Source: Cyanobium sp. CZS48M (GTDB lineage Bacteria > Cyanobacteriota > Cyanobacteriia > PCC-6307 > Cyanobiaceae). From it: 64,000 nt of DNA. Below are positions 754-59,733 of this stretch, one piece after another. How positions within the stretch are numbered: position 1 is the first letter of the stretch; every line of letters starts with the position of its first letter. The position numbers were made by a program, and so were the translations under genes. The stretch lies in assembly GCA_030373145.1 (NCBI GenBank), contig JAUCZK010000020.1, positions 1 through 64,000 of the forward strand, given 5' to 3'. Below the pieces are notes generated by a model that had not been told where the DNA came from, ran no database searches, and saw only the letters and a program-made list of their open reading frames with translations.

Positions 754-794
754 CTATGGGATGATAATCGATAACCCTGGCTGGAGGTACCGCC

Positions 795-1907: not shown

Positions 1908-2157
1908 CATGATGTCCCGAGGGCAACCATCTTTTTCATTCGAACGAGGGTTGCCCTCTCGTCCTGGCTGTCCTTCTCAGTTTGGCAGAAGGCAAGTTCG
2001 CGGCGATTTAGAGCTGAATGCTTAGAGCATTGGCTGCCACTTCTAGCGCCATCGACGGGTTTAGGCGGAAGTAATGACAGGTGAGGCAAACCTTGCGGCT
2101 GCGGCTGGGACGCCGAAAACCAGCTTGAATACTCGATGGAACGAAGGGAGAGATGAG

Positions 2158-2373: not shown

Positions 2374-2549
2374 GGGTCCCTGACGACCGCCTGGTCCGCC
2401 GTGACGCCTTGCTGGTGGAGCTTGCCGAGATCACGGCCCAGATCCGCGATCCGTCTTCGACGTCGCAGGAGCGGGTGGAGCTGTTGGCACGGATGGCGGA
2501 GCTGCGCCGGATCGTGCTTGCGCTGGGCGATCAGGCGACGACTGACTGA
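2370..2549 (+). CDS. small hypothetical protein, second of a coupled pair
   Basis: A 59-residue frame beginning with GTG at 2370 that overlaps the previous stop (GTGA). The product is charged and helical: DDRLVRRDALLVELAEITAQI, a short break DPSSTSQ, then ERVELLARMAELRRIVLAL. The two helices could form a hairpin or coiled coil. No family was recognised. The four-base overlap and similar composition support a two-gene transcript, possibly encoding interacting partners, but there is no motif that says toxin, antitoxin or regulator. Confidence 0.5.
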   Translation: MRVPDDRLVRRDALLVELAEITAQIRDPSSTSQERVELLARMAELRRIVLALGDQATTD

Positions 2550-2589
2550 ACCACCGGAGCATTCGCTCACTATGGGAATAGATGTGCAC

Positions 2590-3003
2590 CTAACCATGAT
2601 TCCACCTGAAAGGCATGGCGTTGGTCTGAACGCTCCGCGATCCTTTGCTCTTCCAGCAGATGGCAAAGTTGAGAATCGTCGTCTCATCAGGGATCCGGCC
2701 TTCCATCGTCTCGATCCCTGCGAAGCGGCGTAAGCAGGGCGTATCGATCAGCATCTCCTCCATCAGGGGGTCTGAAAGCGTGAACCACTGCTGCAGCAGG
2801 TGGTTCCGGAGCATCACCTCCAAAGGAATCGGCGGACGACCTCCTTTGCTGGAGGGCTTGTGATACACGGGCTCGATCAAGGCCAGAAACGCTTCCCAGG
2901 GAACCGTGGCCTCCATCTCATCCAAGAAGCGCTGGCGGCGCGTCCTCTTTTTGGCGTAGATCTGCTCGTAGTCCGTGAAGCCCAGCTGGAGAGGGTCGGC
3001 CAT
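2590..3003 (-). pseudogene. IS5-family transposase, N-terminal remnant
   Basis: The frame from ATG 3003 (MADPLQLGFTDYEQ) carries the IS5 N-terminal hallmarks: AKKRTRRQRFLDEM, GGRPPIPLEVMLRNHLLQQW, LSDPLMEEMLIDTP and GRIPDETTILNF. Just after NF the expected RHLLEE continues only in another frame, so there is a frameshift. Soon after, the similarity stops and the DDE core is absent. A GGGGTCCCC-type motif with flanking T-rich sequence at about 3040-3062 may be the old terminal inverted repeat. The element is inactive. Confidence 0.8.
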
Positions 3004-3093
3004 CCGTTCCAGTCTCAGTCTTGGATCTGGACTGATTTTAGCGGGTTTTTCAGGGGTCCCCTGGCAATGCATATTCCAGAGCAGGAAATACAG

Positions 3094-3267
3094 TTATTTC
3101 CACTCACCATTTCGGCATACAAGCCCATTGACCACTGCACCCTCTGGATACTTGTAACCATTTCTTACGCAATCGGCACGTACTGGGGTTGTTGAGACTG
3201 TGATTAGAATCATGGGAAATGCCAAAATTGAGGCCAGTCCCAGCAGGTACGCAAGTTTTCGAGGCAT
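3094..3267 (-). CDS. small secreted peptide, two cysteines
   Basis: A 57-residue protein starting at ATG 3267, preceded on the minus strand by TAGGAG at good spacing, which decides this start over longer options. Residues 1-31 are a signal peptide: MPRK, a hydrophobic core LAYLLGLASILAFPMILITV, then TPVRA for cleavage. The mature part of about 26 residues is DCVRNGYKYPEGAVVNG followed by LVCRNGEWK, with two Cys that could form a disulfide. The CxxNGxxYxxGAxVxGLxC pattern resembles short secreted bacterial domains ending in NGEW. Function unknown. Confidence 0.6.
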   Translation of the reverse strand: MPRKLAYLLGLASILAFPMILITVSTTPVRADCVRNGYKYPEGAVVNGLVCRNGEWK

Positions 3268-3596
3268 GGTCAATCTCCTATTCAGATCTATTTGCGATGA
3301 TACCGAAGGCCGCACTGCGCGCAAGCCCCAAGCGTTCATCACTCATCCAAGGAATGAATAGAATTACCCGGCGTGAAACGTGCAACAAGACGGGGACATG
3401 AGTCTCACACTCTAGAGCAATAGTGCTCTCGACTTATCTAGTTCCATCCAAAGCAGCGAGTGCGCCGAAAATCTGCTTTAATGATACTAGCTGCAATCGG
3501 CACAAATTTAGATCGTGATAAGACTAGACGTCTATGAGGTGCATTCAAATGTTGCAATTCCAAGGCTAGTCAGGTGTAATTACCACCAGTCACGAA
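3268..3596. other. intergenic, AT-rich, no gene seen
   Basis: About 330 bases between two minus-strand genes. Composition is clearly more AT-rich than the core genome. The part nearest 3267 carries the ribosome-binding site of the small secreted peptide. I see no coding frame, RNA gene or strong hairpin in the rest. Confidence 0.5.
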
Positions 3597-4232
3597 TCAA
3601 CGCGGCGTGCGCGGAATTGTCAGCAGTCTCTTAGCTTTGGCCTCTGAACCGCCTCGCCTTGATTCATCGAATAGTTCTTTGTTACTTGTATAGATATTAG
3701 ATTTATCGCAGCTTGAGTATTTATTATAGATTGAGCCAGTACTTCCCCTTACGGCCGTCGCATTCTCGTTCTTGCCGTTACTATCGAATATTGCAACAAC
3801 AATCTCCTTCCCAAGCCAAGGACTGTCTTGACAGACCTCAAAGTAATCAGGAGGAAGGCCTTTTTGATACTTAAGAATCAAGTTATCGGTGAAATCCCAT
3901 TGAAAAGGATCACTGGGCAATTCTGCGCTTTCAAGTAATTTCTCTCCTAGCTCATCATTATACTTTGATTTCTTTATGGTGCGAACAATGTAGTCGATTA
4001 CTGCAGGCTTCTCGATTGGATCTTGCAATAACCTGTCCATTGTCCTTTCAACGCGCTCACCTGGTTTCGCAGATATTGAATGACCAAAAAGTTCTATGTC
4101 AATAATTCCAAAGTTATTGCCTGCATAGTATCCGAATCCAAAAGCAAGTACTATTATAGCGGGCCATTTAAGCCTGCTCGGGATTGAATCAATGTCATTT
4201 TTGTTGCCATTAGGGAGATTTTCATTTGTCAT
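3597..4232 (-). CDS. hypothetical single-pass membrane protein
   Basis: A 211-residue protein if started at ATG 4232 (MTNENLPNGNKND); a start five codons earlier is also open. One membrane helix, WPAIIVLAFGFGYYAG, lies near residues 24-40. After it comes a soluble, charged domain with four cysteines or fewer and no recognised motif. Positively charged residues flank both sides of the helix, so topology is not certain. The gene is distinctly AT-rich with codon use unlike its neighbours (many ATA, AGA, TTA), a sign of recent transfer. No partner gene is evident. Confidence 0.55.
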   Translation of the reverse strand: MTNENLPNGNKNDIDSIPSRLKWPAIIVLAFGFGYYAGNNFGIIDIELFGHSISAKPGERVERTMDRLLQDPIEKPAVIDYIVRTIKKSKYNDELGEKLLESAELPSDPFQWDFTDNLILKYQKGLPPDYFEVCQDSPWLGKEIVVAIFDSNGKNENATAVRGSTGSIYNKYSSCDKSNIYTSNKELFDESRRGGSEAKAKRLLTIPRTPR

Positions 4233-4247
4233 AAGACAGAATAACAA

Positions 4248-4696
4248 GCTACATATTCATGCTCCGCCAGCAACCCAGGAGCATCTAGATAATCTAGGAA
4301 CCCGGCAAGACCAAGGCAGGAGCCTCTTGTCCTTTCATAAAGTCGACTTCGCGTTTCAAGACTATCCATTTCACTCTCAAGAGGCTGAAATTAGTTTTTT
4401 AAGGCTCTCAGCCTCCTTTCTGGGAAATTTGCTTGCGGGTCGAAACATTTCCTCATAAGACATAGGCTCTGCTAGCAAGCTAAATGCATACTGCAGCTCA
4501 CAAATGCGGTAATAATTACTACAGAATGACGATTATGTTCGCAAATCTTAAGGAACGGTGATCGAGAAATGACTTGGCCCCACCATCATTCACTTACTCC
4601 ATGGCTGATGTCAGGGCCTTTGCGGTGGATGAGAGATTAGATCCAGAAGACGATGCTTGCACTGTTTACCATTCAAGCTGCCTGCCAAGGATTGCC
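4248..4696. other. intergenic between accessory genes, no gene seen
   Basis: About 450 bases from the AT-rich hypothetical gene to the end of the terminase. The first 300 bases are AT-rich like the gene beside it, then composition shifts near 4570-4690 to the GC-rich style of the phage remnant. Short open frames exist but have no start signal, composition or motif that I trust. The compositional change near 4600 may mark an island junction. Confidence 0.4.
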
Positions 4697-6715
4697 CTAC
4701 CGCCCCAGCCAGCCACTGCCGCGCCTGCCGCTGCCCCCCTGCAGCCAGCCGGAACTCTTCGATCGCCCACGAGTACGAGTAGCTGGCCGCTGCTCTGGGG
4801 CCTGCTGTAACTCCGGGCCAGCGTTGCTGGGTGCCTCAGGCTCCACCGGATCGGGCTCCGTAACGGCTGGCACTGCCGTACCTTCCAACGCCCTCACCCG
4901 CGCCGCCCACTCGCTCTCCGGCCAGCGGTCAACGCCAGCAGCGGCCGCCGCAGCCCGAGCCAACACCCTGCAGTCGAGGGGTTCGTTTCGCTGCCGCACC
5001 TTCTCCCACTTCCAAACCGAGAACCCCCGCAGCTCGGTGCGGCGCAGCTCCTCGGCTGTCAGCCCCAGGAAGTAGCTCTCGGGCAGCTCGGGGAAGTGGC
5101 AGAACCCCCTCGGCGCCGGGTCGCCAGGGTGCAGCGGCGGTGGCTGCAGCAGCCAGCCGTACAACTCGCTCTTCAACACAGACACGCCCACTGGCCACAG
5201 CCGGATCCCCCGGAGCACTTTCCGCCCCCTGACGTTCACGTCCTGAGGCACCGGGATGCCCAGGGCCGTCGTCAGGGAGTCGCGGCCTTTTGTGGCCATC
5301 AGCCTCGGGTCGCGCTGGCCACGCACCCAGGTGTAGACCACCTGCGTTTGGTCGCCGGAGTCGATCCCCACCTTGCTGATCGGAACCTCCGTGCCATTGG
5401 CGGCGGTGAAGGTCCGGCTCAATTCGAGGCCCAGGTTCCGCCAGACGCATGGCACCGCCGGATCCGCCTGGATCGAGGAGGTATCCCCCGGCAGGACGAT
5501 GTAGTCCACGCTCCAGCTCTCCAGGTTGCGGCCCCAGGCCACAATCTCCAACTCCAGCCTGTCCCGCTGAACATCCACGCCGCAGGTGAGGATCACGCCG
5601 CCGAGCGGCACCGTGCCCGGTCGGTAGGTCTCGCGGCGGCGGTAGAGATTGGACCAATCCGGCACCGCGGCGCCATCGCTCCAGCACTCGGCCAGCACCG
5701 TGTTCGTCCAGGGGCGAAGGCGAGACGGGTCATCCTTGGCCCGCTCGTAGGCCAGGACGATGTCGGTCCAGCTCAGCCAGCCCAGCGGCGCATAGAGGCT
5801 CGACAGGTGGTAACCCTTGATGGGTGAATCTGGCGCCTCTGCTATCCATTTCCCAAGGTCTTCTCGATACCACCGGCCTTTGGCATGTTCATCCATTCCC
5901 TCCCCACAGTTCTCGCAGATCATCACCGGCGCTCGGCTCAATCGATGCGGCAGCAATGGATCCAGCGGGTCGTAGCGCATCCGGTCCCAACTCAGGATCT
6001 GATAGTGCTTACATTGCGGACAGGGCAGGTTGTACCGCCGCTGGTCCGACTCCATGAACTTCGACCAGATAGCTGAGCGGCCAGCTAACGTAGGTGTTGA
6101 AGTCCAGCAGTGCTTCTTTCTCGCGCCGAAGGTTCTTGTTCTAGCCTCGACAATATCGACTGGGCTGCCTTCATCGTCTACCTCCAGCGGCCACCGGTCA
6201 ATCTCATCGCCGCCAAGATAGCGAAACGGCATACTAGCCAGACCGCTGGCAGCATTGGCGCCGCCCATGATCAGCAGGTGGTCGTTGATAAACTCCTTCA
6301 TCAACAATGTGTTGCCGCTATCTCTCTCCCGCGATGGCTTAACCTTCAGGCTCAAGTTTGGCGTGCTCTCGATCATCGGAGCAACCCGCTCCAGGTAGAC
6401 CAGCAGACAGCAGGCCAGACCACCGCCTTCAGGTACTCCCATCGTCTCCGAGATAAGGCAAGCCATGCAGTTGGGGTCCAACCCCAGTCGCGCCCTGCCC
6501 GCGTCTATAGCGGCTTGGTCGAGATCGAAACTGTCTGTCCATACCGAAGGCCAGTCGTAACCCACGAGGTTGCCGTACTCATAGCTGTTAGCCATTGTCG
6601 CGCGGCAGAGATCGGCGCCGCTGGGGGTTGTCTCCCCGGTACGGATCCAGTCTATTAGAACTATTTTAAGTTCCGCATAGACTGCTTCGAGTGTTGCCTC
6701 AGTTAGAGTCTCCAT
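4697..6715 (-). CDS. phage terminase large subunit (GpA type), N-terminus replaced
   Basis: A 672-residue frame. From about residue 115 on it matches lambda GpA-type terminases: VAPMIESTPNLSLKVKPS, then SGNTLLMK, FRYLGGDEIDRWP (DE of Walker B), a CPQC...CENC zinc site (~residues 235-275), and the RNase H-like nuclease region starting at GVDVQRDRLELEIVAWG with KVGIDSGDQTQ. The usual N-terminal Walker A (PxxxGKT/S) is missing. Instead residues 1-110 (METLTEATLEAVYAEL..., DPNCMACLISETMG) resemble nothing I recognise. This looks like an in-frame fusion after a deletion, so packaging activity is doubtful. The C-terminus is a basic Gly/Ser/Arg tail. Confidence 0.75.
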   Translation of the reverse strand: METLTEATLEAVYAELKIVLIDWIRTGETTPSGADLCRATMANSYEYGNLVGYDWPSVWTDSFDLDQAAIDAGRARLGLDPNCMACLISETMGVPEGGGLACCLLVYLERVAPMIESTPNLSLKVKPSRERDSGNTLLMKEFINDHLLIMGGANAASGLASMPFRYLGGDEIDRWPLEVDDEGSPVDIVEARTRTFGARKKHCWTSTPTLAGRSAIWSKFMESDQRRYNLPCPQCKHYQILSWDRMRYDPLDPLLPHRLSRAPVMICENCGEGMDEHAKGRWYREDLGKWIAEAPDSPIKGYHLSSLYAPLGWLSWTDIVLAYERAKDDPSRLRPWTNTVLAECWSDGAAVPDWSNLYRRRETYRPGTVPLGGVILTCGVDVQRDRLELEIVAWGRNLESWSVDYIVLPGDTSSIQADPAVPCVWRNLGLELSRTFTAANGTEVPISKVGIDSGDQTQVVYTWVRGQRDPRLMATKGRDSLTTALGIPVPQDVNVRGRKVLRGIRLWPVGVSVLKSELYGWLLQPPPLHPGDPAPRGFCHFPELPESYFLGLTAEELRRTELRGFSVWKWEKVRQRNEPLDCRVLARAAAAAAGVDRWPESEWAARVRALEGTAVPAVTEPDPVEPEAPSNAGPELQQAPEQRPATRTRGRSKSSGWLQGGSGRRGSGWLGR

Positions 6716-47575: not shown

Positions 47576-47660
47576 ATCAGCTGCAATCCCCTCTCTCCAG
47601 GTTTGAACGCTTCACCGTGCGATCAGAATGGTTCCCCGTCCACTCCCGCAGAGGCCCTTG

Positions 47661-47927
47661 ATGGAGAAGCAGGTCGTGGCCGCCAACGAACCCATTGCCG
47701 TTGAGCTGAAGAAAGGAAAAACGTACCCATTCATTCATAGTCGGTTCAACCCATCAGGCCCGTTGCTGAGCTTGCTCGATGCTGGCTTTATGGGGCTGGT
47801 GCCTGCCGGAAGTCGCTCTATCCGTTCTGGAGCCATGACCTTGTTGCCATGGACTCCTTACCCCCTGGTTGCGGTTTCCGGCAGGGCCACGCCGGCAAGG
47901 GCCCTGGCCTGTTATGGAACCCGGTGA
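47661..47927 (+). pseudogene. possible truncated CDGSH-type iron-sulfur protein
   Basis: From ATG 47661 the product begins MEKQVVAANEPIAVELKKGKTYPF, typical of small CDGSH proteins just before their CxC...CDGSH cluster (quoted in parts: NEPIAVELKKGKTYPF). After PF the sequence diverges (IHSRFNPSGPLLSLL) and contains no CDGSH motif, so only the first ~24 residues survive. The IS110 transposase begins 109 bp later, and insertion or rearrangement may have removed the rest. Short match, hence moderate doubt. Confidence 0.4.
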
Positions 47928-48035
47928 CATCCCTGTCCCCCTGGGCGTGGTGGTGATCCCTCATAGCGAATGACTGGTGCCGGCTCCTGCCGCCGTGACA
48001 ACCACCACACACCCACCAAGCACCAGGAGGTGTTC

Positions 48036-49445
48036 ATGGCCATCAGGATCGGCATTGATGTCGCCTGCCGCGCCGTCCATCGCGCTGCCTGCGCCGACGC
48101 CACTGGCTCGTTGCTCTGGAAAAACGTCCGCTTTCGCACCAGCCCTGAGGATCTGGAGGCTCTCTGGCAGCGGATTCCAGCCGGAGAAGCCGACATCACC
48201 GTCGTCATGGAACCCACCCGCAATGCCTGGGTTCCCCTGGCGGCCTGGTTCCGGCGCCACGGAGCAAAGGTGGTGATGGTGCCGCCGGAGCAATCCGCCG
48301 ATCTGCGGGACTACTACAACAAGCACGCCAAAACCGACCGTCTTGACGCCGAACTGCTGGCTCGTCTCCCTGGCCTCCATCCAGAGGGCCTGCACATCGA
48401 ACAGGGTCTCGGTTGCGCCGAGCCCCTGCGCCGGGCAGTGAAGATTCGCTCCACTCTGGTCAGGCGGCGTGTCACCTGCACGCAGCGGCTCGATGCTCTG
48501 CTGGAGATCCTTGGGCCCGACTGGATCTGTGCCCTGGGCACGGTGATGAGCGCCACCGTGCTGCTGTTCCTGACCCGTTGGCCCGATCCCCAGCAGGTGC
48601 TGCGTCTGGGGCACAAGCGTCTGACGGACTGGCTGGCCCGCCAGAGCCGCGGCATGTGGGGCGCCCAGAAAGCAGAGGCCATTCTCAATGCTGCGGCAGC
48701 GACGCTGCGACTGTGGGGAGCCGACGGCATGGACTTCGCCGCCCTCGCGGCCGATATCGCCCTGGAGGCGGAGCTGGCACTCGATCTCGATCGCCAGATT
48801 AAGGCGATCGACAAACGGATCGCGACGTACTACGACAAAGCGGATCCTGAGCACATCGCCCTTTCGGTACCTGGGGTCGGCCAGATCCTGGCGGCCCAGA
48901 TCATCGGGCGGCTGGGTGATCCGCAGCGGTTCACCAACCTGGCGGCGGTGCGCTCCTACTCGGGCCTGGTGCCAAGGCAGAACAGTTCCGGTGTAGCCAG
49001 CGCGGCCGGAGGACCAACCAAGCAGGGAGATGCCTGCCTGCGGGAGGCCATCTTCCTGGCCGCAGACCACGCCCGCCGCAGCGATCCAACCCTGGCCCAG
49101 CGCTATCACCGCCTCATGGTGGAGAACGGCAAGCACCACACCTCGGCCCTCTGCTCGATCGGAGCCGTGCTGCTCACCAGGATCGCGACTTGCCTGCGCA
49201 AAGGCGAGCCCTACCTGCTGCTTGATATTGATGGCACGCCAATCACTGCCCAGCAGGGGCGCGCAATCGCCAAGGAGCGCTACAGCGTGCCGGAAGCAGT
49301 GCGCAAGGCGCGGCGGACCGTCCATCGCTCGGACAGTCAGCAACCAACTGACGTGATGATGGGTGGGAGGGGCAGCAGCACCAAGAGAGGAGTCGCCAGG
49401 CGCTCCAAGGTGACAACCACCCCGCAACCAGCCTGCATCGGCTGA
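48036..49445 (+). CDS. IS110-family transposase
   Basis: A 469-residue DEDD recombinase. The start is ATG 48036 (MAIRIGIDVA), preceded by CAGGAGGTGTTC. Catalytic acidic residues are D in IRIGIDVA (~8), E in VVMEPTRNAW (~59), and the pair in KTDRLDAELLA (~100-103). The C-terminal Tnp_20 domain has VPGVGQILAAQIIGRLGDPQRF and the catalytic serine region YSGLVPRQNSSG. The C-terminal ~70 residues are an extra basic tail. It appears intact. In this family a noncoding bridge RNA beside the gene guides insertion; the flanks here (about 47930-48035 and 49446-49660) are the candidates. IS ends were not defined. Confidence 0.92.
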   Translation: MAIRIGIDVACRAVHRAACADATGSLLWKNVRFRTSPEDLEALWQRIPAGEADITVVMEPTRNAWVPLAAWFRRHGAKVVMVPPEQSADLRDYYNKHAKTDRLDAELLARLPGLHPEGLHIEQGLGCAEPLRRAVKIRSTLVRRRVTCTQRLDALLEILGPDWICALGTVMSATVLLFLTRWPDPQQVLRLGHKRLTDWLARQSRGMWGAQKAEAILNAAAATLRLWGADGMDFAALAADIALEAELALDLDRQIKAIDKRIATYYDKADPEHIALSVPGVGQILAAQIIGRLGDPQRFTNLAAVRSYSGLVPRQNSSGVASAAGGPTKQGDACLREAIFLAADHARRSDPTLAQRYHRLMVENGKHHTSALCSIGAVLLTRIATCLRKGEPYLLLDIDGTPITAQQGRAIAKERYSVPEAVRKARRTVHRSDSQQPTDVMMGGRGSSTKRGVARRSKVTTTPQPACIG

Positions 49446-49490
49446 ACAACCCTGGCAATCCCTTGGCTGGGGGTGATCCGTCAGGCCCCA

Positions 49491-49539
49491 GGTAGCCGTT
49501 CTGGTCCGCTCCCCACAAGAGCGGACCAGAACGGCTACC
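49491..49539. repeat. 21-bp perfect inverted repeat (hairpin) after IS110
   Basis: Arms at 49491-49511 and 49519-49539 are exact reverse complements, separated by CCCACAA. The arm begins GGTAGCCGTTCTGGTCC. The predicted hairpin is very stable and has no T-run on either side, so it is not a standard terminator. It lies 46 bp after the IS110 transposase stop and 128 bp before the IS66 left end. It may belong to the IS110 noncoding end or be a remnant of another element. Confidence 0.9.
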
Positions 49540-49666
49540 GCCCGGGGGCCGGCCGCTGCAATGCCCACGGGAAGACCGGCCTTTGGAGCGTCAGCTTGGT
49601 CGCAGCAGCGGTGCCGAGCACCCGGGCTGAAAAAAACAGCCTAGGGCTTGACATCCGTTAGGAACC

Positions 49667-51361
49667 CAGGGGGCGGGACGGCTCACCGCGAACTTCGGCC
49701 CTGCTGAACCCTTGACGGCAGCTTGATTCCCGGTTGCATCTCAGGTAGAGACCGCCTGTGATGTCAGCACCCCCGGCCGGGATTCCAGAAGCGGACTGGC
49801 TGGCAACTCCAGCCAGCGTCAGAACGTTGATTCTCGCTCAGCAGCAGGAGATTCAGGCACTCAGGCAAGAGAATGAGGAGCGTCGGGTCCAGCTCACCGC
49901 CCTGGCGACCGAGCTTTCAGAGCTGCGGGAGCGGATCGGCCGCAGCTCGCGCAACTCCTCGAAACCACCCTCCAGCGATGGGCCTGGCTTTAAGCCACCC
50001 GATCGGCGCAAGGGCAGTGGCCGAAAGCGTGGCGGCCAGCCGGGCCATCCCGGATCCGGGCCGGAGCTGCTGCCGATCGAGCGGGTGGATGAGGTGGTGG
50101 AACACCACCCCGATGCCTGCCGCCGCTGCGGCACCTTGCTGGAGGGAGAGGATCCAGAGCCCTTGCGTCATCAGGTGATCGAGAGTCCGCCGATCACGCC
50201 GCTGGTGATCGAGCATCGGCTGCACCGGTTGGTCTGCCCCTGCTGTTCCACCAGCACCTGCGCAACGCTACCGGCGGACGTGGAAGCGAGCCATTACGGT
50301 CCCCGGCTCAGTGCCCTTGTAGGTCTGCTGGGCAGTGCCTTCCCGCTGAGTTTCAGCAAGACCCAGGCTCTGCTGGATCAGCTGCTGGGGGTGGAGATCA
50401 GCTGCGGCGCCATTGCAACGATCCGCCAGCGCTTGAGTGCAGTGCTGGAGCAGCCCATGCAGGAGGCCCTTGCTTTTGCCCGTCAGCAACCGGTGGCCTA
50501 CGTGGATGAAACCGGCGCCCCCACCGGCAACGCGGACGGATGCAATCCCGATCGCAAGCGCGGCTGGCAGTGGGTGATGGTCACCGCCGTGGTGACGGTG
50601 TTCATCCAAGGCCTGAGCCGATCGACGGCCGCCGCGATCGAACTGCTGGGCAACGCCTTTGGCGGGATTGTGGTGAGCGATCGCTTCTCCGCCTACAACC
50701 ACCTGCCCACCCAGCAACGCCAACTGTGCTGGGCGCACCTGATCCGCGACCTGGTCGCCATCGCCGAACGCCCGGGCGCCAGCGCTGAGTTCGGCGCGGA
50801 GCTGCTGGGCCTGCAGCAGCAGCTGTTTGGCCACTGGCACCGCTACAAGGACGGCACGATCGACTGGCCCGCCTTGCAACAAAGCTGCCGGCCGATCCGC
50901 CAGGCGTTTGTGGCGAGTCTGCAGCGGGTGGTGGAGCTGGGCTACCAACGAGGCGAGCGAACGCCGTGGGTGAGCACGGTGCGCACCTGCCAGCAGCTCC
51001 TGAAGGTGGCCGATGGGTTGTGGACCTTTCTGGCGATCGAGGGGATCGAGCCCACCAACAATGCTGCAGAGCGAGCCCTGCGCCAGTCGGTGATTCAGCG
51101 CAAGATCAGTCAAGGAGTCCAATCACGCCAAGGTGCGATCTGCCGCAGCCGCCTGCTCACGGTCACCACCACCCTCAGGCAACAGGGCCGCGATGTCTGG
51201 CAGTTCCTTGAGCAGGCCTGGATCGCCCATCACCGAGCTGGGGTGATGCCATCACTGCTGCCTGATCGCTGAGTTCAGCAGAAAGAGCAGCCCTGCGTCT
51301 CTGCCTATTCAGCAATGAGCGTTCTGGCGTGAAGTGACACGGCAGCTCGTCCCGCCCCCTG
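49667..51361 (+). mobile_element. IS66-family insertion sequence
   Basis: Terminal inverted repeats are visible: CAGGGGGCGGGACG at 49667-49680 and its exact reverse complement at 51348-51361; partial similarity continues inward. The element is ~1.7 kb with a single transposase gene, the arrangement of the one-gene (ISBst12-like) IS66 subgroup. I find no matching 8-bp target duplication directly outside the repeats. The right flank continues at once into a BaeRF-like C-terminal coding fragment, so insertion or rearrangement cut that gene. Confidence 0.75.
49761..51272 (+). CDS. IS66-family transposase
   Basis: A 503-residue transposase. An N-terminal coiled coil (LILAQQQEIQALRQENEERR) is followed by the SSRNSSKPPSSDGPG motif, a basic linker GRKRGGQPGHPG, a CRRCG...CPCCS zinc-finger domain, and the DDE domain: YVDETGAP, GIVVSDRFSAYNHL, QLCWAHLIRDL and NNAAERALR (Glu). 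The C-terminal RSRLLTVTTTLRQQGRDVWQFL is typical. GTG 49758, one codon earlier, is an alternative start. The frame is complete, so the element may be active. Confidence 0.93.
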   Translation: MSAPPAGIPEADWLATPASVRTLILAQQQEIQALRQENEERRVQLTALATELSELRERIGRSSRNSSKPPSSDGPGFKPPDRRKGSGRKRGGQPGHPGSGPELLPIERVDEVVEHHPDACRRCGTLLEGEDPEPLRHQVIESPPITPLVIEHRLHRLVCPCCSTSTCATLPADVEASHYGPRLSALVGLLGSAFPLSFSKTQALLDQLLGVEISCGAIATIRQRLSAVLEQPMQEALAFARQQPVAYVDETGAPTGNADGCNPDRKRGWQWVMVTAVVTVFIQGLSRSTAAAIELLGNAFGGIVVSDRFSAYNHLPTQQRQLCWAHLIRDLVAIAERPGASAEFGAELLGLQQQLFGHWHRYKDGTIDWPALQQSCRPIRQAFVASLQRVVELGYQRGERTPWVSTVRTCQQLLKVADGLWTFLAIEGIEPTNNAAERALRQSVIQRKISQGVQSRQGAICRSRLLTVTTTLRQQGRDVWQFLEQAWIAHHRAGVMPSLLPDR

Positions 51362-51364
51362 AAT

Positions 51365-51502
51365 GGGTACAAAGATCCAGAGGTTAATGACATTCTCGAC
51401 GACCTAGGCAGGACAGCCTTGAAGAAGGGCGGACAGGTCATTGTCGTCCCCAGCGAAAGGATGCCGACGAAGACCGGAGTAGCCGCGATTTACCGGTATT
51501 GA
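51365..51502 (+). pseudogene. BaeRF-like protein, C-terminal fragment
   Basis: Directly after the IS66 right repeat an open frame reads KDPEVNDILDDLGRTALKKG, QVIVVPSERMPTKTGVAAIY and RY before a TGA at 51500. The ending (VVPxExMPTxTGxAAIYRY) matches the C-terminus of bacterial archaeo-eukaryotic release factor-like (BaeRF) proteins, found in stress clusters next to HPF-like genes. Everything upstream has been lost at the IS boundary. Confidence 0.6.
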
Positions 51503-51535
51503 ACCGCAGCTGTACTGATCACAGCAGGAGGAGCC

Positions 51536-51673
51536 ATGAAGATTGAGATCACTACGAGTAGCAATATCTAGGCTGTTCACCGCATGGTGCAGCAGGTAAA
51601 AACAGTGGCTGGGGATGCCGTGGATCAGCTGAGCACGAAGAACAGCGACGTGGATGGAGGACTACCAAAGTGA
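51536..51673 (+). pseudogene. HPF/RaiA-like ribosome hibernation factor remnant
   Basis: ATG 51536 follows a strong GCAGGAGGAGCC site. The frame reads MKIEITTSSNI, then TAG, then AVHRMVQQVKTVAGDAVDQL and STKNSDVDGGLPK before TGA. It matches the start of HPF/sigma-54-modulation-like proteins (MKxQITTDxNIEG, then a helix). The TAG at 51569-51571 sits where relatives have Glu or Gln, and the second half is lost. It follows the BaeRF fragment as in intact stress operons of other bacteria. Confidence 0.55.
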
Positions 51674-52087
51674 TATGGTCAGCAGCAAGAAAATCAGAGC
51701 GGAACATACTCGATACCTGTTCGAGATTCGCTTCTCCATATTCGGTCGATCTCTCTGAGGGGTGCATTCAGCCAGCGGCTCTTGAGCAATGGATGGTGTT
51801 CCCCGAAGTTTCATCATGGCCTCGTCAGCATGCTCTGGGGGCCTGGCCTAGCACGACTGAGCGGATCTCTCAGGCCACAAGAGCACCGGTCAGCAACAGC
51901 ATTAATCCCAGCCCCGGATCGAGAGGGATGGGCATCAACTTCATCAATCGTTATCCCAATGGAACGCCCTGCAACGACTGACCTGTCCGCATGATGCAGT
52001 AGCGAAAAACGCAAGGGGTAACCCAGCCACGGTCCCGGCCTGAACGCGTGACTAGCCTTCAGATGAAAGATGTACCGATGAAATCCT
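51674..52087. other. intergenic, probably decayed sequence
   Basis: About 410 bases between the HPF-like remnant and csbD-like gene. Only short frames occur on either strand, none with a good start or recognisable motif. The last ~60 bases should contain the promoter of the CsbD-like gene, but no clear consensus was seen. Confidence 0.45.
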
Positions 52088-52438
52088 ATGAACATTCGTC
52101 CACATATTTCCATTTCCTCGCTCATGGCGTTGGCCTTCATGATCTTCACCATGCTGATTCCGTTGACCGGCTCGGCCATGGCCATTGATCATGCACCTGA
52201 ACCCATCACAATCGCAACCATGTCAAACAGAATCGACGCCACAGCTAAAGCCACGGAAGGCAAGCTGGAATCTGCCTATGGTGAACTCACTGGCGATACT
52301 GGCCACCAGATCAAAGGAAAGGCCAAGCAGGTTCAAGCTTCGGCCATGAATACAGCAGAAGACCTGAAGCAAAGTGCAAGATCAGTCGCCAAGAATGTTC
52401 GTGATGCCGCCGGACAAGCAGCAGACGACCTGAGCTGA
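52088..52438 (+). CDS. CsbD-family stress protein with signal peptide
   Basis: A 116-residue protein. Residues 1-~32 are a signal peptide (ISSLMALAFMIFTMLIPLTGSAMA), unusual for CsbD proteins, which are normally cytoplasmic. The CsbD domain follows: NRIDATAKATEGKLESAYGELTGDTGHQIKGKAKQVQ (parts: KATEGKLESAYGELTGD, GHQIKGKAKQVQ). A C-terminal helical extension (EDLKQSARSVAKNVRDAAGQAADDL) resembles LEA/apolipoprotein-like repeats. CsbD is a sigma-B general stress protein in Bacillus; its function is unknown. Confidence 0.88.
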   Translation: MNIRPHISISSLMALAFMIFTMLIPLTGSAMAIDHAPEPITIATMSNRIDATAKATEGKLESAYGELTGDTGHQIKGKAKQVQASAMNTAEDLKQSARSVAKNVRDAAGQAADDLS

Positions 52439-52524
52439 GCCAACTAGACGTCGCCGTTGCAAAATGATGGCGAGGCTATGCATGACCTGGTCATCCCTCC
52501 ACTATTACCCCTTCTGGGAGAGAA

Positions 52525-52674
52525 ATGATGCTGGAACTCATTGCCATTGTACTCGTCGTTCTCTGGCTGCTTGGCCTTCTCACGTCTTACACCCTGGGAG
52601 GCTTGATCCATGTCCTGCTGATCATCGCAGTGATTGCCATCCTGCTACGCCTGATTAGAGGGCGTGGCCTCTGA
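52525..52674 (+). CDS. DUF5670/lmo0937-like small membrane peptide
   Basis: A 49-residue protein starting at tandem ATGs (52525/52528) after GGGAGAGAA. It is almost entirely hydrophobic: LELIAIVLVVLWLLGLL, then TSYTLGGLIHVLLIIAVIAILLRLI (parts: TLGGLIHVLLIIAVIAILL) and a short basic end RGRGL. This WLLG...GGxIHxLLxIAVI pattern is that of the lmo0937-type (DUF5670) peptides, widely linked with stress gene clusters. It lies between the CsbD-like and DUF302 genes. Confidence 0.85.
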   Translation: MMLELIAIVLVVLWLLGLLTSYTLGGLIHVLLIIAVIAILLRLIRGRGL

Positions 52675-52695
52675 ACACTTGAGGAGTCTCATCCC

Positions 52696-53142
52696 ATGAA
52701 TCCGTACTTCATTGTTGATACGGACAAATCGTTTGAGCAGGCCAGCGACGATCTCCAGGTCGCTGTAACAGCCAATGGTTTCGGCGTGCTGGCAGTGCTT
52801 GATCTAGGCGAGAGCCTGCGCAGCAAAGGCATCAACTTCTCCGAAAACTGCCGGGTGTTTGAGGTGTGCAACCCCAAGCAAGCGGCCAAGGTGTTGATGT
52901 CCGACATGAAACTGACCATGGCACTGCCCTGCCGGATCTCTGTCTACACCGAAGCTGGCCAGACGCGGATCGGCATGATCCGACCCGAGGGCATGCTGCT
53001 CAACCTGTCCTCAGAGCCTGACTTGATGGAGGTGGCGGGTGAGGTTGAATCCTCCGCCACAGCTATCATCCAGGCGGCAGCATCCCTGCGCACAGGGACA
53101 ATCCAGCACAAGGAAGATGAATCCAGCACGTCAGCGCCATAG
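52696..53142 (+). CDS. DUF302 protein
   Basis: A 148-residue soluble protein. KSFEQASDDLQVAVTANGFGVLAVLDLGESLRSKG (parts: SFEQASDDLQVAVTANGFG), then RVFEVCNPKQAAKVLMSD, LPCRISVYTEAGQTRIGMI and the tail of helix EVAGEVESSATAIIQAA match DUF302, a beta-alpha fold often found beside metal or proton transporters. The C-terminus overlaps the P-type ATPase start by 26 bases, indicating translational coupling. Confidence 0.9.
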   Translation: MNPYFIVDTDKSFEQASDDLQVAVTANGFGVLAVLDLGESLRSKGINFSENCRVFEVCNPKQAAKVLMSDMKLTMALPCRISVYTEAGQTRIGMIRPEGMLLNLSSEPDLMEVAGEVESSATAIIQAAASLRTGTIQHKEDESSTSAP

Positions 53143-55576
53143 GCACACTGAGAACTTGGACGATCTGGACATACAGCAACTGCAGGACAAGCTGAAGTCT
53201 TCACCGGATGGGCTCAGTCAGAGTGAAGCTCTTCGCCGCTTGACACAGTACGGCAGCAACGAGATTGCCGAAGAGAAGACGAATCAGATTCTGAAGTTTC
53301 TGACCTATTTCTGGGGTCCTATTCCCTGGATGATTGAAGCAGCCGTCGTTCTTTCCGCGCTGGCCCAGCATTGGCCCGACTTCGCCATCATCCTGCTGCT
53401 GCTTCTCGCCAACGCTGTGATTGGTTTCTGGGAAGAACACCAAGCTGGTAACGCCATCGCGGCACTCAAAGCCAAGCTGGCCATGAAGGCACAGGTGAAA
53501 CGAGATGGCCAATGGACCACGGTGGAGTCACGTGAACTGGTGCCGGGCGACGTCGTCCATATACGCCTCGGCGACATCGTGCCGGCGGATGCACGCTTGC
53601 TGGATGGTGAACCGCTGCAAGTGGATCAGTCTGCCCTGACGGGTGAATCGTTGCCAGCCACGCGGCAATGTGGTGAAGCTGTGTTCTCGGGATCGATCAT
53701 TCGCCGGGGTGAAATCGATGCGATGGTCTATGCCACAGGAGCAAACACATACTTCGGCAAAACAGCGGAGTTGGTGCAGGCTGCTCACAGCGTCAGCCAT
53801 TTCCAACAAGCTGTCCTGAAGATCGGCAATGTCCTGATCCTGCTGGCGCTGGCTTTGGTCTCGGTGATCATGGCAGTCGCGCTGCTCCGCGGCGACCCAC
53901 TGCTCACCACAGTTCAGTTCGCCCTGGTGTTGACCGTTGCTGCGATTCCCGTGGCCATGCCAACGGTGCTCTCAGTGACCATGGCTGTGGGAGCGCGCCA
54001 GCTGACGAAGAAAGGGGCGATCGTGACACGGTTGGCGGCCATCGAGGAATTGGCTGGGGTGGATGTGCTCTGCTCAGACAAGACCGGCACCCTGACCCAG
54101 AACAAGCTGACACTTGGCGATCCATTCAGCTTGGATCCACCGCGCGTTGACGGTGGTGCGGATCTGGTGATCTTTAACGCAGCCCTGGCGTCGCGAGCAG
54201 ACAACAAGGATGCGATCGACCGGGCTGTGCTTGACGGCCTAAGTGATGACCACAGCCTTGATGACTACCAATTGGTTCATTTCCAGCCCTTTGACCCGGT
54301 GCATAAGCGAACTGAAGCCACCGTCAGGGGACTGGACGGACTGGAGTTCAAGGTCACCAAAGGCGCTCCTCAAGTGATCCTGGCGTTGTCGGCCAATCGT
54401 GCCCAGGTGAAGGCCGCCGTCGACAGCGCGATCAGCGAGTTTGCGGCACGAGGATTCCGCTCACTGGGAGTGGCTCGCACGGATGCGCAACAGGAGTGGC
54501 AGTTTCTTGGTGTCTTGCCCCTGTTTGATCCACCTCGTGAGGAAGCCAAAGCGACCATCGCCACAGCACTGCAGATGGGAGTGAAGGTCAAGATGGTCAC
54601 GGGTGATCAATTGCCGATCGCCCAGGAAACAGCCGAGAACCTGGGGATGGGCCCCCTGATCCTCGATGCCAGTGGTTTCGAAACCACGGCGACCCATTCG
54701 TTGGAGTTGTTGGCGGAGTCGATCGAAAAGGCGGATGGCTTCGCCCAGGTGTTCCCTGAGCACAAGTTTCAGATTGTGGATGTCCTCCAGAAGCACGGCC
54801 ACATCGTCGGCATGACCGGTGATGGGGTCAACGATGCTCCCGCGCTGAAAAAGGCCGACTGCGGCATCGCCGTTTCGGACGCAACGGACGCGGCCCGCGG
54901 TGCGGCTTCCATCGTGCTGATGACACCGGGGCTGTCAGTGATTGTCGAGGCCATCAAGACGAGCCGCAAAATCTTCCAGAGGATGAACAGCTACGCGATC
55001 TACCGCATCGCCGAAACGCTGCGCGTCCTGTTGTTCATGACGGCTTCGATCCTGATCTTCAATTTCTACCCTGTAACCGCCGTCATGATCGTGATGCTGG
55101 CCTTACTGAATGACGGCGCCATCTTGTCAATAGCCTATGACAACGTTCATTACAGCAACGATCCAGAAAAATGGAACATGCGTGTCGTGATGGGGATTTC
55201 CGCAGTTCTAGGCGTTATCGGAGTCGTCTCAGCCTTTGGCTTGCTTTATCTCGGAGAGAACGTTTATCAACTTGATCGTGCACATATCCAGACGCTGATG
55301 TATTTAAAGCTCTCTGTGGCTGGACATCTGACGATCTTCCTCACACGCACCCGTGGGCCATTCTGGTCCATACGCCCAGCACGGATTCTGCTGTTGGCAG
55401 TTTGCGGGACGCAACTGGTGGCGACGCTGATCGCAGTGTATGGATGGTTCATGACCCCCCTGGGCTGGGGCTGGGCCCTGGCGGTTTGGGGGTATGCCCT
55501 GGCTTGGTTCTTGGTCAACGACCGTTTGAAATTACTGGCCTATGGGATCTTGAGTCCACAGCCTCATCGCCGGTAG
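53117..55576 (+). CDS. plasma-membrane-type proton-pumping P-type ATPase
   Basis: An 819-residue P3A-type ATPase starting at ATG 53117 (MNPARQRHRHTEN) with AAGGAAG upstream. The actuator domain has ALTGESLPAT (~residue 175). Membrane helix 4 has AAIPVAMPTVLSVTMA. Phosphorylation occurs at Asp in CSDKTGTLTQNKL (~321). The hinge is MTGDGVNDAPALKKADCGIAV (parts: MTGDGVNDAPALKKA, ~567). FLTYFWGPIPWMIEAA at the first helix is typical of fungal/plant PMA-like H+ pumps. It would expel protons using ATP. It is coupled to DUF302 and belongs to the stress island, fitting a role in acid tolerance. Confidence 0.95.
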   Translation: MNPARQRHRHTENLDDLDIQQLQDKLKSSPDGLSQSEALRRLTQYGSNEIAEEKTNQILKFLTYFWGPIPWMIEAAVVLSALAQHWPDFAIILLLLLANAVIGFWEEHQAGNAIAALKAKLAMKAQVKRDGQWTTVESRELVPGDVVHIRLGDIVPADARLLDGEPLQVDQSALTGESLPATRQCGEAVFSGSIIRRGEIDAMVYATGANTYFGKTAELVQAAHSVSHFQQAVLKIGNVLILLALALVSVIMAVALLRGDPLLTTVQFALVLTVAAIPVAMPTVLSVTMAVGARQLTKKGAIVTRLAAIEELAGVDVLCSDKTGTLTQNKLTLGDPFSLDPPRVDGGADLVIFNAALASRADNKDAIDRAVLDGLSDDHSLDDYQLVHFQPFDPVHKRTEATVRGLDGLEFKVTKGAPQVILALSANRAQVKAAVDSAISEFAARGFRSLGVARTDAQQEWQFLGVLPLFDPPREEAKATIATALQMGVKVKMVTGDQLPIAQETAENLGMGPLILDASGFETTATHSLELLAESIEKADGFAQVFPEHKFQIVDVLQKHGHIVGMTGDGVNDAPALKKADCGIAVSDATDAARGAASIVLMTPGLSVIVEAIKTSRKIFQRMNSYAIYRIAETLRVLLFMTASILIFNFYPVTAVMIVMLALLNDGAILSIAYDNVHYSNDPEKWNMRVVMGISAVLGVIGVVSAFGLLYLGENVYQLDRAHIQTLMYLKLSVAGHLTIFLTRTRGPFWSIRPARILLLAVCGTQLVATLIAVYGWFMTPLGWGWALAVWGYALAWFLVNDRLKLLAYGILSPQPHRR

Positions 55577-55835: not shown

Positions 55836-56627
55836 TCAGGGGCCTGGCACCGTGCCCCGAATGGCATGGGCCCGCGCCGCCAGGGTGATCGGACCGCTGC
55901 CGGCCGGCTGCAGGCGGGCTCGCAGCAACTCGCGGAAGCCGGAGCGTTCCTCCTCGTTCATGGTCGCGAGGGCCTGACCCGCGCTCGGGCCGCCGAGGAG
56001 GGTGTTCCAGAACTCGTCGTAGTCGGCGAAGCTGCGTTCCACGGCGATCACTCTCGTCTGGATGTCGCTCAATCCGGCGCTGGCCCAGAGGTCCCCCAAC
56101 ACCTCAAAGCGGGAGGCCTCAGGACTGGGTGGCATGGGTGTGGGCCTACCGACGGCGCTCAGGCTTTCCGTCACGTCCCGATAGGGAAAGCCACCACCCT
56201 CCATGTCCCAGGCATAGGCGGCCACTGTTCCACCCGGGGCAACGACACGCGCCATTTCAGCCACACCTTGCGCCGGGTCGGGCACAAAGAAGATCACCAA
56301 CGGCATGACCGCCAGATCGAAGGCAGCATCTGGAAAGGGCAGGGTCATGGCGTCGGCGTTGACGAACTCGACGCTCTGCAGGAGAGGATGCTGCCGGGCG
56401 AAGGCGAGTTGCGCTTCCGACGGGTCAATGCCGACCAACGAGAGCGGTTCGCTCTGCTGAGCGATCAGTTGCGTGAAGGCGCCATTGCCACAGCCCACAT
56501 CCAGCCAGCGCTGACCGTGGCTGGGGGCGATCCAGCCGAGAAAGTCCTGGCCGGCGAGGCGGCTCCAGACCCCCATGAAGCGGTCGTAACCGGCCCCATC
56601 GGTGAAGCGGATGGGTTCACTGGTCAT
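55836..56627 (-). CDS. SAM-dependent methyltransferase (class I)
   Basis: A 263-residue enzyme with the Rossmann methyltransferase fold: RWLDVGCGNGAFTQLIAQQ (motif I), LVGIDPSEAQLAFARQH (motif II), NADAMTLPFPDAAFDLAVMPL (motif III region) and MARVVAPGGTVAAYAWDM. Similar to UbiE/Methyltransf_11 proteins acting on small molecules; the substrate is unknown. It is alone between the proton ATPase (converging, 259-bp gap that holds no recognisable gene) and the WD40 remnant. Confidence 0.9.
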   Translation of the reverse strand: MTSEPIRFTDGAGYDRFMGVWSRLAGQDFLGWIAPSHGQRWLDVGCGNGAFTQLIAQQSEPLSLVGIDPSEAQLAFARQHPLLQSVEFVNADAMTLPFPDAAFDLAVMPLVIFFVPDPAQGVAEMARVVAPGGTVAAYAWDMEGGGFPYRDVTESLSAVGRPTPMPPSPEASRFEVLGDLWASAGLSDIQTRVIAVERSFADYDEFWNTLLGGPSAGQALATMNEEERSGFRELLRARLQPAGSGPITLAARAHAIRGTVPGP

Positions 56628-57017: not shown

Positions 57018-57503
57018 ATCGTGTGTTGTGGGGGCGGAGCTGCTGACGCTGGCGCCTGGGGCCAGGGTTCCAGTGGGGCTTCCCGTTGGGTCCGGGGCAC
57101 CTGGAGCAGGAGCTCGTAAACGGTGCAATGGACGGCGACGGCGTCACACGCCAGGGAAGCCAGTGATCCGTTGAGAGTGTTGGAGCAGGGGCCGGATCGT
57201 CAGCGCACTCCTGGCGGCTGCTGAGGTGGGGTGTCTTCCATGATCTGGAGCCTCCCGGTGTCGATGAACTCACGATCGTCCGGCCGGCGGTCTGGGGCAA
57301 TAGGGCTTTATGCCTGTCTCAGCCCCCTTGGCCAAAGCCAGGATCAGGAGTTCGGATGGGCGCCGTTCAGGCCCTGAAGCGATCCGGCCTCAACCTCACA
57401 CCTTCACGGTGACGGTGGTGACCTTGTTGACCTTCGGCGCCGTTGGCTCCAGGGGCCATAGCGAAATTCGCTGATCAGCAATCCCCGTTTTGGATCCTGA
57501 AAC
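57018..57503. other. intergenic between WD40 remnant and tRNA-Ser
   Basis: About 490 bases. Frames on both strands lack start signals and recognisable domains. The segment beside the tRNA on the minus strand is its downstream region. I see no promoter, RNA gene or repeat I can defend. Confidence 0.4.
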
Positions 57504-57587
57504 GGAGAGGGTGGGATTCGAACCCACGGAAGGTTTCCCTTCAAACGATTTCGAGTCGTTCGCTTTCGACCACTCAGCCACCTCTCC
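57504..57587 (-). tRNA. tRNA-Ser (anticodon CGA)
   Basis: An 84-nt type II tRNA on the minus strand. Acceptor arms GGAGAGG and CCTCTCC pair fully. The anticodon stem ACGA/TCGT encloses CTCGAAA, giving anticodon CGA for codon UCG. A long variable arm (GAAGGGAAACCTTC) marks it as serine. The T loop is TTCGAAT. CCA is not encoded. comEC begins downstream on the same strand orientation but upstream in coordinate order. Confidence 0.95.
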
Positions 57588-57663
57588 AGGACCAACCTCC
57601 CGTGCCCGCAGACATCGGTGGATCAGCCAGGAGTCACTCTACGGATTCATCTGCACGGGGCCA

Positions 57664-59733
57664 TCAGCCGGCGGCTCCCTGCAGCGAGCCATTCGCCCCG
57701 CTGGCGCTCCAACCCTGGGGCAACCCGGGGGCTGCGCCGCTGAGCCACACCCGCCGGGGAGCAGCCGCACTGAGCTGCTGCTGTTGGCGGCGGCTGGGGC
57801 GGAAGCCCAGCCACACCCCCGCCACCGGTTCGCCGCCGGCTGGGCCTTGCTGGCTCCAGGCCTCAAGCGACTGGGGGTCGGGCAGCAGCCACCAGCGATG
57901 GCGGCCGATGCCGAGGGCCAGGGCCTGGCTGTCGCCGCTGAGGGGAGCGAGGCTGAGGCCGGGGCTCTCCAGCCGTTGTCCTGGCTGCAGGCTGCTCTGG
58001 CCATCGCTGCTGGAGACCAGCAGGGAGGTCTGAGCGCTCCAGCAGGCCGGATCATCCGGGGCCACCGGATCGAGCAGGGTGATCCAGTCGTAGCGCTCCA
58101 GGCCCAGGCCGCCCGCGAGCTTGCGGGCATCGGCGCAGCTGAGGCCATCGGCCTTGCCACTGACCAGGGCGCCGCGGCCCCCGTGGCGGGCCACCAGCAG
58201 ATCGCCGCTCCAGCGGTGCACCAGCAGCAGTGCATCGCCGCCGAGCAGGGCCAGGTGCAGGGCCAGCACCAGCGCCAGCCCCGCCGCCCCCAGCCGCCGC
58301 GGCCAGACCCCCGTGCCCGGCAACAACCAGGGCAGCAGCGAGAGGCCGAACAGCAGCACCAGCAGAGGGACGGGCCGCCCCAGCTGCCACTGGGCCATCG
58401 GCAGGGCCGCGATGGTGCGGGTGATCGCCAGCAGCAGGCCGCTCAGGGGCAGCAGCGGCCAGGCCAGCAGCGGCACCAGCGGCGGCAGCAGCACCGCCGA
58501 GAGGGCCATCGCCATGGCGCCGAGGGTGAGTGGACTGAGCAGCGGCGCCACCAGCAGGTTGGCCGGCACCGCATAGATGGGCACGATGCCGAAGTGGTGC
58601 AACTGCAGCGGCAGGGTCCAGAGCGAGGCGGCCACGGGAACCGCCAGCCCCGCCGCCGCCCAGCCCGGCAGGCGCCCGGCCAGGGCCGTCTCCAGGGGGC
58701 GGGCGGTGAGGATCAGCCCGGCGGTGGCCGCCACCGAGAGCTGGAAGCCCACGTCCTGCAACCACCAGGGCTGCACCAGCAGCATCAGCAACACGCTCAG
58801 CAGCAGCACCCCCAGGGGCCGGCTGCGGCCGCCGCTCTCCAACACCGCAAAGGCCACCCCACCCATCAGCACCGCCCGCACCACCGAGGGCTGGGGGCCC
58901 GCCAGCAGCAGGAACAGCAGCATGGCCCCCAGGGCCAGGGCGCAGCGGGGGAGCCTCGGCAGCCGCCGCCCGAGGGCCATCACGGCGCCGAGCAGCACCG
59001 AGAGGTGGAAACCCGAGGCGGCCAGGGCGTGGGAGAGGCCGGCGGCGCGGAAGCTGGAGCCCACATCCGCCGGCAGAGGCACCACAGCGCTGCCGAGCAC
59101 GAGGGCCGCCAGGATTCCGCCCCGACGCTCCCCGCCCTGCTGGATCAGGCTGGCGGCCATGCGGCGGCGCAGGTCGGCGATGGGTGTGGCTGGGCGCGCC
59201 AGCACCTTCAGGTCGGTGCTGGCCTCCAGGCGCAGCTGGCTCCAGATGCCGCGGCGGGCCAGGCGCTCCGCCGGACCGCTCAGCAGCGGATGGGGCCCTG
59301 AGGCCGGCCGCCGCAGGGTTCCATGGGCCTCCACCAGCCAGCCCTGGCGCAGGGGCGGGCAGGGCTCGAGCAGCAGCTCGGTGCGGCCACCGGCCGTGCT
59401 CAGGGGCACCGAGCAGGCACCCGAATCGCCGCGCAGGCGGGGATCGCTGCTGAGCTGGCCGCGCAGCACCAGCTCCTGCCCGCCCGTCCCCTGCAGCTGC
59501 CGCACAGGATCCAGGGGGCCTGGCTGGGGCTGACGCCAGAGCGCCCAGAGCAGCAGCGACGGGGCGATCAGCACGAGCGCCAGCGACGGCAGCGGCCGTG
59601 CCCCCAGCCGCCGTGCCCGCCACCAGCCGGCGGCGCCCAGCAGCAGCAGGAGAGCCAACCGGGGCGCGGCGGCCAGGGGCACGGTGCCCAGGGCAAGCCC
59701 CGCCAGGGCCAGCGACACCACCAGAAAGGGCAT
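57664..59733 (-). CDS. comEC: ComEC/Rec2-family DNA uptake channel
   Basis: A 689-residue polytopic membrane protein that carries single-stranded DNA across the inner membrane in natural competence. An N-terminal OB-like domain (LVLRGQLSSDPRLRG) is followed by the competence domain with LSHALAASGFHLSVLLGAVMALG (HxxAxSGxH motif) and VRAVLMGGVAFAVLE, plus about ten helices. The C-terminal part (LLVHRWSGDLLVARHGGRGALV) corresponds to the degenerate metallo-beta-lactamase domain; the metal-binding HxHxDH is not evident. Picocyanobacteria with this gene are often transformable, but other com/pil genes are outside the window. Confidence 0.93.
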   Translation of the reverse strand: MPFLVVSLALAGLALGTVPLAAAPRLALLLLLGAAGWWRARRLGARPLPSLALVLIAPSLLLWALWRQPQPGPLDPVRQLQGTGGQELVLRGQLSSDPRLRGDSGACSVPLSTAGGRTELLLEPCPPLRQGWLVEAHGTLRRPASGPHPLLSGPAERLARRGIWSQLRLEASTDLKVLARPATPIADLRRRMAASLIQQGGERRGGILAALVLGSAVVPLPADVGSSFRAAGLSHALAASGFHLSVLLGAVMALGRRLPRLPRCALALGAMLLFLLLAGPQPSVVRAVLMGGVAFAVLESGGRSRPLGVLLLSVLLMLLVQPWWLQDVGFQLSVAATAGLILTARPLETALAGRLPGWAAAGLAVPVAASLWTLPLQLHHFGIVPIYAVPANLLVAPLLSPLTLGAMAMALSAVLLPPLVPLLAWPLLPLSGLLLAITRTIAALPMAQWQLGRPVPLLVLLFGLSLLPWLLPGTGVWPRRLGAAGLALVLALHLALLGGDALLLVHRWSGDLLVARHGGRGALVSGKADGLSCADARKLAGGLGLERYDWITLLDPVAPDDPACWSAQTSLLVSSSDGQSSLQPGQRLESPGLSLAPLSGDSQALALGIGRHRWWLLPDPQSLEAWSQQGPAGGEPVAGVWLGFRPSRRQQQQLSAAAPRRVWLSGAAPGLPQGWSASGANGSLQGAAG

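Follow-up and report, generated by a model that had tools for sequence, protein, structure and literature searches.

In the accessible portion of PMC10901736, BaeRF-type ribosome-hibernation genes are described as lying mostly beside raiA, typically within stress operons. For CsbD, the Anabaena proteins Asr1134 and Asr4653 occur at the cell surface without a signal peptide, and their genes are induced by drought (PMC4103569, accessible portion). We analyzed a 64,000-nucleotide stretch of Cyanobium sp. CZS48M (assembly GCA_030373145.1, contig JAUCZK010000020.1, positions 1 to 64,000; hereafter the window), in which remnants of a BaeRF gene and an HPF gene stand upstream of intact genes for CsbD, DUF5670, DUF302 and a P3A-type proton ATPase (Table 1). 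As in the Balon/raiA stress operons, a BaeRF-type gene is followed directly by a short HPF gene among stress genes; here a P3A pump, DUF302 and CsbD are added, which the accessible portion of PMC10901736 does not mention, and the hibernation genes are broken.

We favour, with confidence and doubt in about equal parts, a low-G+C stress islet, probably acquired, with two modules, one of them split by exchange between insertion sequences (IS). The hibernation module would comprise a Balon-related BaeRF of family 3 and a short HPF, and the envelope/energy module an exported CsbD, the small membrane protein DUF5670, DUF302 and the P3A proton pump. We infer that the islet was acquired, serves under stress and is co-regulated. 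In cells short of energy or stressed by acid, the hibernation proteins would park ribosomes, and the pump would spend leftover ATP on proton expulsion, so that cytoplasmic pH and membrane potential are held; exported CsbD and DUF5670 would shield the envelope, and DUF302 would aid the pump. Here, the BaeRF gene would have been split when an IS inserted and duplicated 8 bp, its 5' part would have been moved elsewhere by exchange with another copy of that IS, and HPF would have decayed at the locus, leaving only the pump module intact.

The split BaeRF gene and the IS block

BaeRF sequence proper starts at 51371 (51362-51370 belong to the IS end), and this tail matches the last 42 positions of the ribosome-hibernation-factor family NF052287 (E 5.4e-5). 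The 5' part, with the domain, lies outside the window on contig C22 of the same assembly, and scores 167.8 bits against PF18845, baeRF_family3 (cut-off 31.5). Compared with the BaeRF of another cyanobacterium, G350, the 5' part shows 73% identity and the 3' part (C-terminus) 71%, near-equal values that are expected if the two pieces are one gene. With the 5' part located on C22, the idea that the tail is an isolated degenerate remnant is ruled out. Searched alone, the tail had no match in Pfam, gave nothing informative against 40 relatives, and found one weak match among plasmids with no annotated gene beneath it. More distant BaeRF kinds (26-27% identity to the split gene) are present in 6/8 host-genus relatives searched, and this genome itself has a BaeRF-type gene elsewhere (L161 6476-7588, G000:C11) that is 25% identical to the split gene.

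The HPF remnant is recognized by alignment to intact homologues: its scores are 63 with the HPF of G350 and 58 with that of G141, a member of another cyanobacterial family (each reached by 0/1000 shuffles), and 38 with that of the acidobacterial locus L099 (5/1000). The G350 homologue exceeds the PF02482 cut-off (32.2 vs 23.7 bits). The remnant alone gave no match to PF02482 or elsewhere in Pfam, only an irrelevant one in NCBIfam (E 0.07), and nothing useful in a search against plasmids. Both remnants upstream of the four stress genes, which an earlier note on this DNA had reported from the sequence alone, are thus borne out by family or homologue matches.

That note had the set cut by IS66. 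An IS did cut the BaeRF gene, as matching IS ends and an identical 8-bp duplication on both sides attest: C22 reads AAAGATCC and then GTAACCATTCATTC, the window reads TGAATGGGTAC and then AAAGATCC, and the IS ends at the two junctions agree at all but one of 11 bases. IS66 is not supported as the element: the terminus abutting BaeRF corresponds to that of a different IS, and the IS66 gene lies inside the block. The CDGSH-type gene at the other end of the block was cut by another copy of the IS that split BaeRF; the 3' part of the CDGSH-type gene, together with the same 8 bp GGAAAAAC, opens contig C35. By eye, this gene runs on there from base 53 in a long glutamate-synthase-like frame. The IS ends are of type GTACCC at both window ends and of type GTAACC on C22 and C35, where they are identical over 52 bases. 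The two duplication pairs and the end types fit a reciprocal exchange between two copies of one IS in opposite positions, and such an exchange may well have taken place. An exchange of this kind can spread a stress islet over several contigs, leaving half of it looking like junk.

The intact cassette and its picocyanobacterial relatives

The four downstream genes are complete and each matches its family model, as the note had held. The ATPase scores 1044.4 bits against the TIGR01647 equivalog (curated cut-off 615.5), spanning positions 1-755 of 755. P3A ATPases are marked by the motifs DKTGT, TGES and TGDGVNDAP and a conserved Asp in M6; the window translation carries all three motifs, with an Asp aligned in LLNDG. 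The nearest solved structures are 5ksd (plant AHA2), 1mhs and 7vh5, fungal plasma-membrane pumps among them. With AHA2 and fungal Pma1 the protein shares a full-length family match above the cut-off, and Asn, Arg and Asp residues align with N106, R655 and D684 of AHA2. It differs in being bacterial, with 819 aa, and is predicted to export protons at the expense of ATP.

The DUF302 gene overlaps the start of the ATPase gene by 26 bp, which the note took for coupling. The overlap is real, and arises because the window DUF302 exceeds its counterparts in G004 and G007, relatives in the host genus, by about 15 residues; gaps of 54 bp in G004, 42 bp in G007 and 169 bp in L085 (Synechococcus sp. CS-1328) rule out a conserved coupling.

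By eye, CsbD begins with a Sec-type signal peptide (about residues 1-32, SAMA/ID), and the protein is likely exported. Such a start had been called unusual. It is not: nine of 13 CsbD homologues from the host genus and its neighbour have a strongly hydrophobic N-terminus (taking the first possible start codon, several of which are uncertain, and leaving out the damaged cassette copy of G007), and codon positions in this region are under little constraint. The Anabaena proteins offer a precedent for a surface location (PMC4103569, accessible portion); the window protein resembles them in its CsbD domain, above the cut-off, and differs in its signal-peptide-like start. The DUF5670 product is, like the lmo0937 family (NF033488/PF18919), a 49-aa membrane protein scoring above the cut-off, and differs in being paired with CsbD. 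The pairing belongs to the host genus: of 12 further CsbD regions retrieved from that genus and from G013, eight have DUF5670 beside CsbD (one of them on C11 of this genome), and the four that lack it are those of G003 and G013 and two distant copies within this genome.

Relatives G004, G007 and L085 also have CsbD, DUF302 and ATPase in this order, their ATPases being 90%, 87% and 84% identical to that of the window. In G004 and G007 the cassette lies between tRNA-Ser(CGA) and comEC, a gap that is empty in seven of nine genus members (six more and this genome); in the window the tRNA stands between the cassette and that gap. A phage-type integrase adjoins the tRNA in G004, and a decayed pump lies ~7 kb from it in G008. 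The tRNA-Ser(CGA)/comEC junction (window 57489-57664) thus behaves as an island hot spot of the genus. The L085 cassette is flanked upstream by an alpha-amylase-family gene and on the other side by sbcDC-like genes (named by eye). No transposase was seen inside the cassette.

Table 1. Features of the locus, with window coordinates unless a contig is named.
Feature	Position	Strand	Basis or remark
CDGSH-type gene, 5' part, IS-cut	47628-47722	+	name by eye; 8-bp duplication GGAAAAAC at 47715-47722
Composite IS block, ~3.6 kb	47723-51370	none	both outer ends begin GTACCCATTCA read inward
IS110-family transposase gene	47970-49445	+	PF01548 + PF02371
IS66 inverted repeats	49667-49680 and 51348-51361		CAGGGGGCGGGACG
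IS66-family transposase gene	49758-51272	+	PF03050
Target-site duplication	51371-51378		AAAGATCC; common to the end of contig C22
BaeRF-family-3 (Balon-related) gene, 3' end	51371-51502	+	NF052287; identity to G350
BaeRF gene, 5' part	C22:43497-44528		PF18845; frame stops at contig end
HPF gene, broken	51536-51673	+	one internal TAG, truncated; alignment to HPF of G350 and G141; directly after BaeRF, as in G350
Block 5' of CsbD, perhaps promoter or leader	51937-52087	+	blastn; common to G004 and G007
CsbD-family protein, 116 aa	52088-52438	+	PF05532, 42.4 bits (cut-off 40)
DUF5670/lmo0937-family small membrane protein, 49 aa	52525-52674	+	PF18919, 54 bits (cut-off 23.5); NF033488
DUF302 protein, 148 aa	52696-53142	+	PF03625, 61.1 bits (cut-off 23)
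P3A-type (plasma-membrane proton-efflux) ATPase, 819 aa	53117-55576	+	TIGR01647
Class I methyltransferase	55836-56627	-	87%-identical copy ~3 kb before the CS-1328 cassette
tRNA-Ser(CGA), island hot spot	57502-57588	-	
comEC-like gene	57664-59733	-	tblastn 93%; name by eye; flanks the cassette in G004 and G007

Hibernation genes beside proton pumps in other cyanobacteria

A P3A pump above the cut-off (E 1e-200) was found in 17/386 cyanobacterial genomes, at 18 places. The window pump is therefore not a typical cyanobacterial one, given this rarity and that 15/17 places outside this genome fall in another subclade. In G141, HPF, BaeRF, DUF302 and ATPase genes follow one another on one strand, and then come genes for cytochrome c and a SpoIIAA-like protein; in G162, HPF lies directly 5' of the pump. 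In G350 a DUF302 remnant precedes an ATPase 79% identical to that of the window, and BaeRF and HPF lie on a separate 3.5-kb contig, which shares no 16-mer with the ATPase contig. The note's association of hibernation genes with a P3A pump is supported by this recurrence in G141, G162 and, on separate contigs, G350. No HPF, BaeRF or DUF302 gene was seen near the pump at the remaining 14/17 outside places. A DUF302 profile found 13/386 cyanobacterial genomes at E 1e-15, a limit that leaves out the remnant in G350; the gene adjoins an ATPase only in the present genome (G000) and in G141.

This recurrence in separate subclades suggests that the pump and the hibernation genes came together, or stayed together, on more than one occasion; function would explain this better than one recent transfer, although the numbers are small. 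A wider proposal, that these genes are a portable cyanobacterial dormancy set coupling BaeRF and HPF hibernation to a proton pump with a DUF302 partner, strikes us as a long shot. Were it true, protein synthesis would be stopped and the spared ATP used for pH and membrane potential. G141 offers a complete natural example of the hibernation-pump row. Through its gene order the set links ribosome hibernation to a proton pump that is uncharacterised and to three small stress proteins whose function is unknown. A limited open-access search of the literature on cyanobacterial Balon and hibernation, P-type proton ATPases and DUF302-ATPase pairs gave no account of the gene set, and the accessible portions of PMC7660261, PMC8886135 and PMC8196465 contain no link to it.

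By eye, GH65-like and PPK2-like genes are among those near the pump elsewhere in the cyanobacteria (L180, L184, L185), a hint of a broader energy-reserve context. Where DUF302 genes stand alone in the genus (L170, L177), they come after a DUF305-like gene (named by eye).

Competing explanations and origin

The BaeRF-HPF pair and the CsbD-DUF5670-DUF302-ATPase cassette may instead be unrelated, having entered the tRNA-Ser hot spot separately and become neighbours by chance; we think this quite possible. No close window-type BaeRF was found in 8/8 genus relatives searched, yet the cassette is present in two of these, and the modules may thus have met by chance, since this BaeRF was found in only one of nine genus genomes. 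Furthermore, the block shared with G004 and G007 begins only at 51937, the integrase beside the tRNA in G004 shows that the site does collect islands, and in L085 the alpha-amylase-family gene takes the upstream place of the hibernation genes. On the other hand, genes of the same kinds adjoin in G141 and G162, both modules have close kin in G350, and the G+C contents of the two modules are similarly low.

Base composition gives weak support to one foreign islet of ~6 kb. G+C is 0.51-0.57 in the BaeRF pieces, the HPF remnant and the cassette genes, whereas the window has 0.655 overall and comEC 0.755, and on C22 the low G+C begins ~1.8 kb before the IS.

Several findings weigh against the functional two-module islet that we favour. 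The G+C drop amounts to 1.3-2 standard deviations (SD) of the window's 1-kb values (mean 0.654, SD 0.061), and 10/16 1-kb windows with G+C <0.58 fall elsewhere in the window. HPF is near 2/17 and BaeRF near 1/17 of the other cyanobacterial ATPase loci; the ATPase of G141 (65% identity) belongs to another subclade, and its BaeRF is best matched by Pfam family 7, that of the window by family 3. The split gene is best called Balon-related only, since its 5' part (143.8 bits) and its tail (22.8) fall below the cut-off of 330 for the Balon equivalog NF052287. Among the four picocyanobacterial carriers, all four downstream genes are intact only in the window: DUF5670 is reduced to its 3' part in G004 and G007, CsbD of G007 is damaged by an internal deletion and stops early, and the ATPase of L085 is interrupted at codon 21 by a stop, though translation could start later. 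This last interruption makes the two-module islet somewhat less likely and chance neighbourhood more so.

A further objection concerns the window junction, which could be an assembly artefact. The join across the IS block would then be chimeric and the BaeRF gene split by a single ordinary IS insertion, which we consider unlikely. C22 and C35 both end 52 bases inside the IS end, and the assembly is in 37 contigs; against this, the end types pair, within the window and between C22 and C35, as a reciprocal exchange would have them.

For the origin of the pump, quick trees with SH-aLRT support were built from the best 80 of at least 571 confirmed ATPase matches, so donors may be missed. In these, the window ATPase falls into a single clade (support 100) together with the remaining picocyanobacterial copies and that of G350. 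The larger group around this clade (support 99) contains 61 sequences from other organisms plus a single further cyanobacterial one. The nearest neighbour of the clade is a Desulfuromonadales sequence, at a support of 80-82, so no donor is fixed. The phylogeny suggested in the note places the pump in a clade dominated by other phyla, Pseudomonadota among the closest.

At 79 non-picocyanobacterial ATPase loci, with at least 1 kb of upstream sequence in 75/79 and at least 3 kb in 68/79, CsbD, DUF5670 and the window kind of DUF302 were found at 0/79, using profiles built from picocyanobacterial sequences, by which other CsbD or DUF302 kinds could be missed. A BaeRF profile likewise gave 0/79. HPF occurs at 1/79, the acidobacterial L099, where by eye a BaeRF-like C-terminal scrap precedes it. 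Gene origins in the islet differ gene by gene. Import of the whole six-gene set as one unit from a proteobacterium, the version of the earlier note, is very improbable: the pump's place among other phyla and the low G+C of the islet would suit it, but it is opposed by the 79 loci, by the CsbD-DUF5670 pair of the host genus and by the Desulfuromonadales neighbour at support 80-82, and a proteobacterial cluster is not supported as a source.

Beyond the islet, the methyltransferase of the window and its 87%-identical counterpart in L085 (785-1651) are near the cassette in both genomes, on different sides. Another low-G+C stretch, with a minimum of 0.42, is present at window positions 501-5000.

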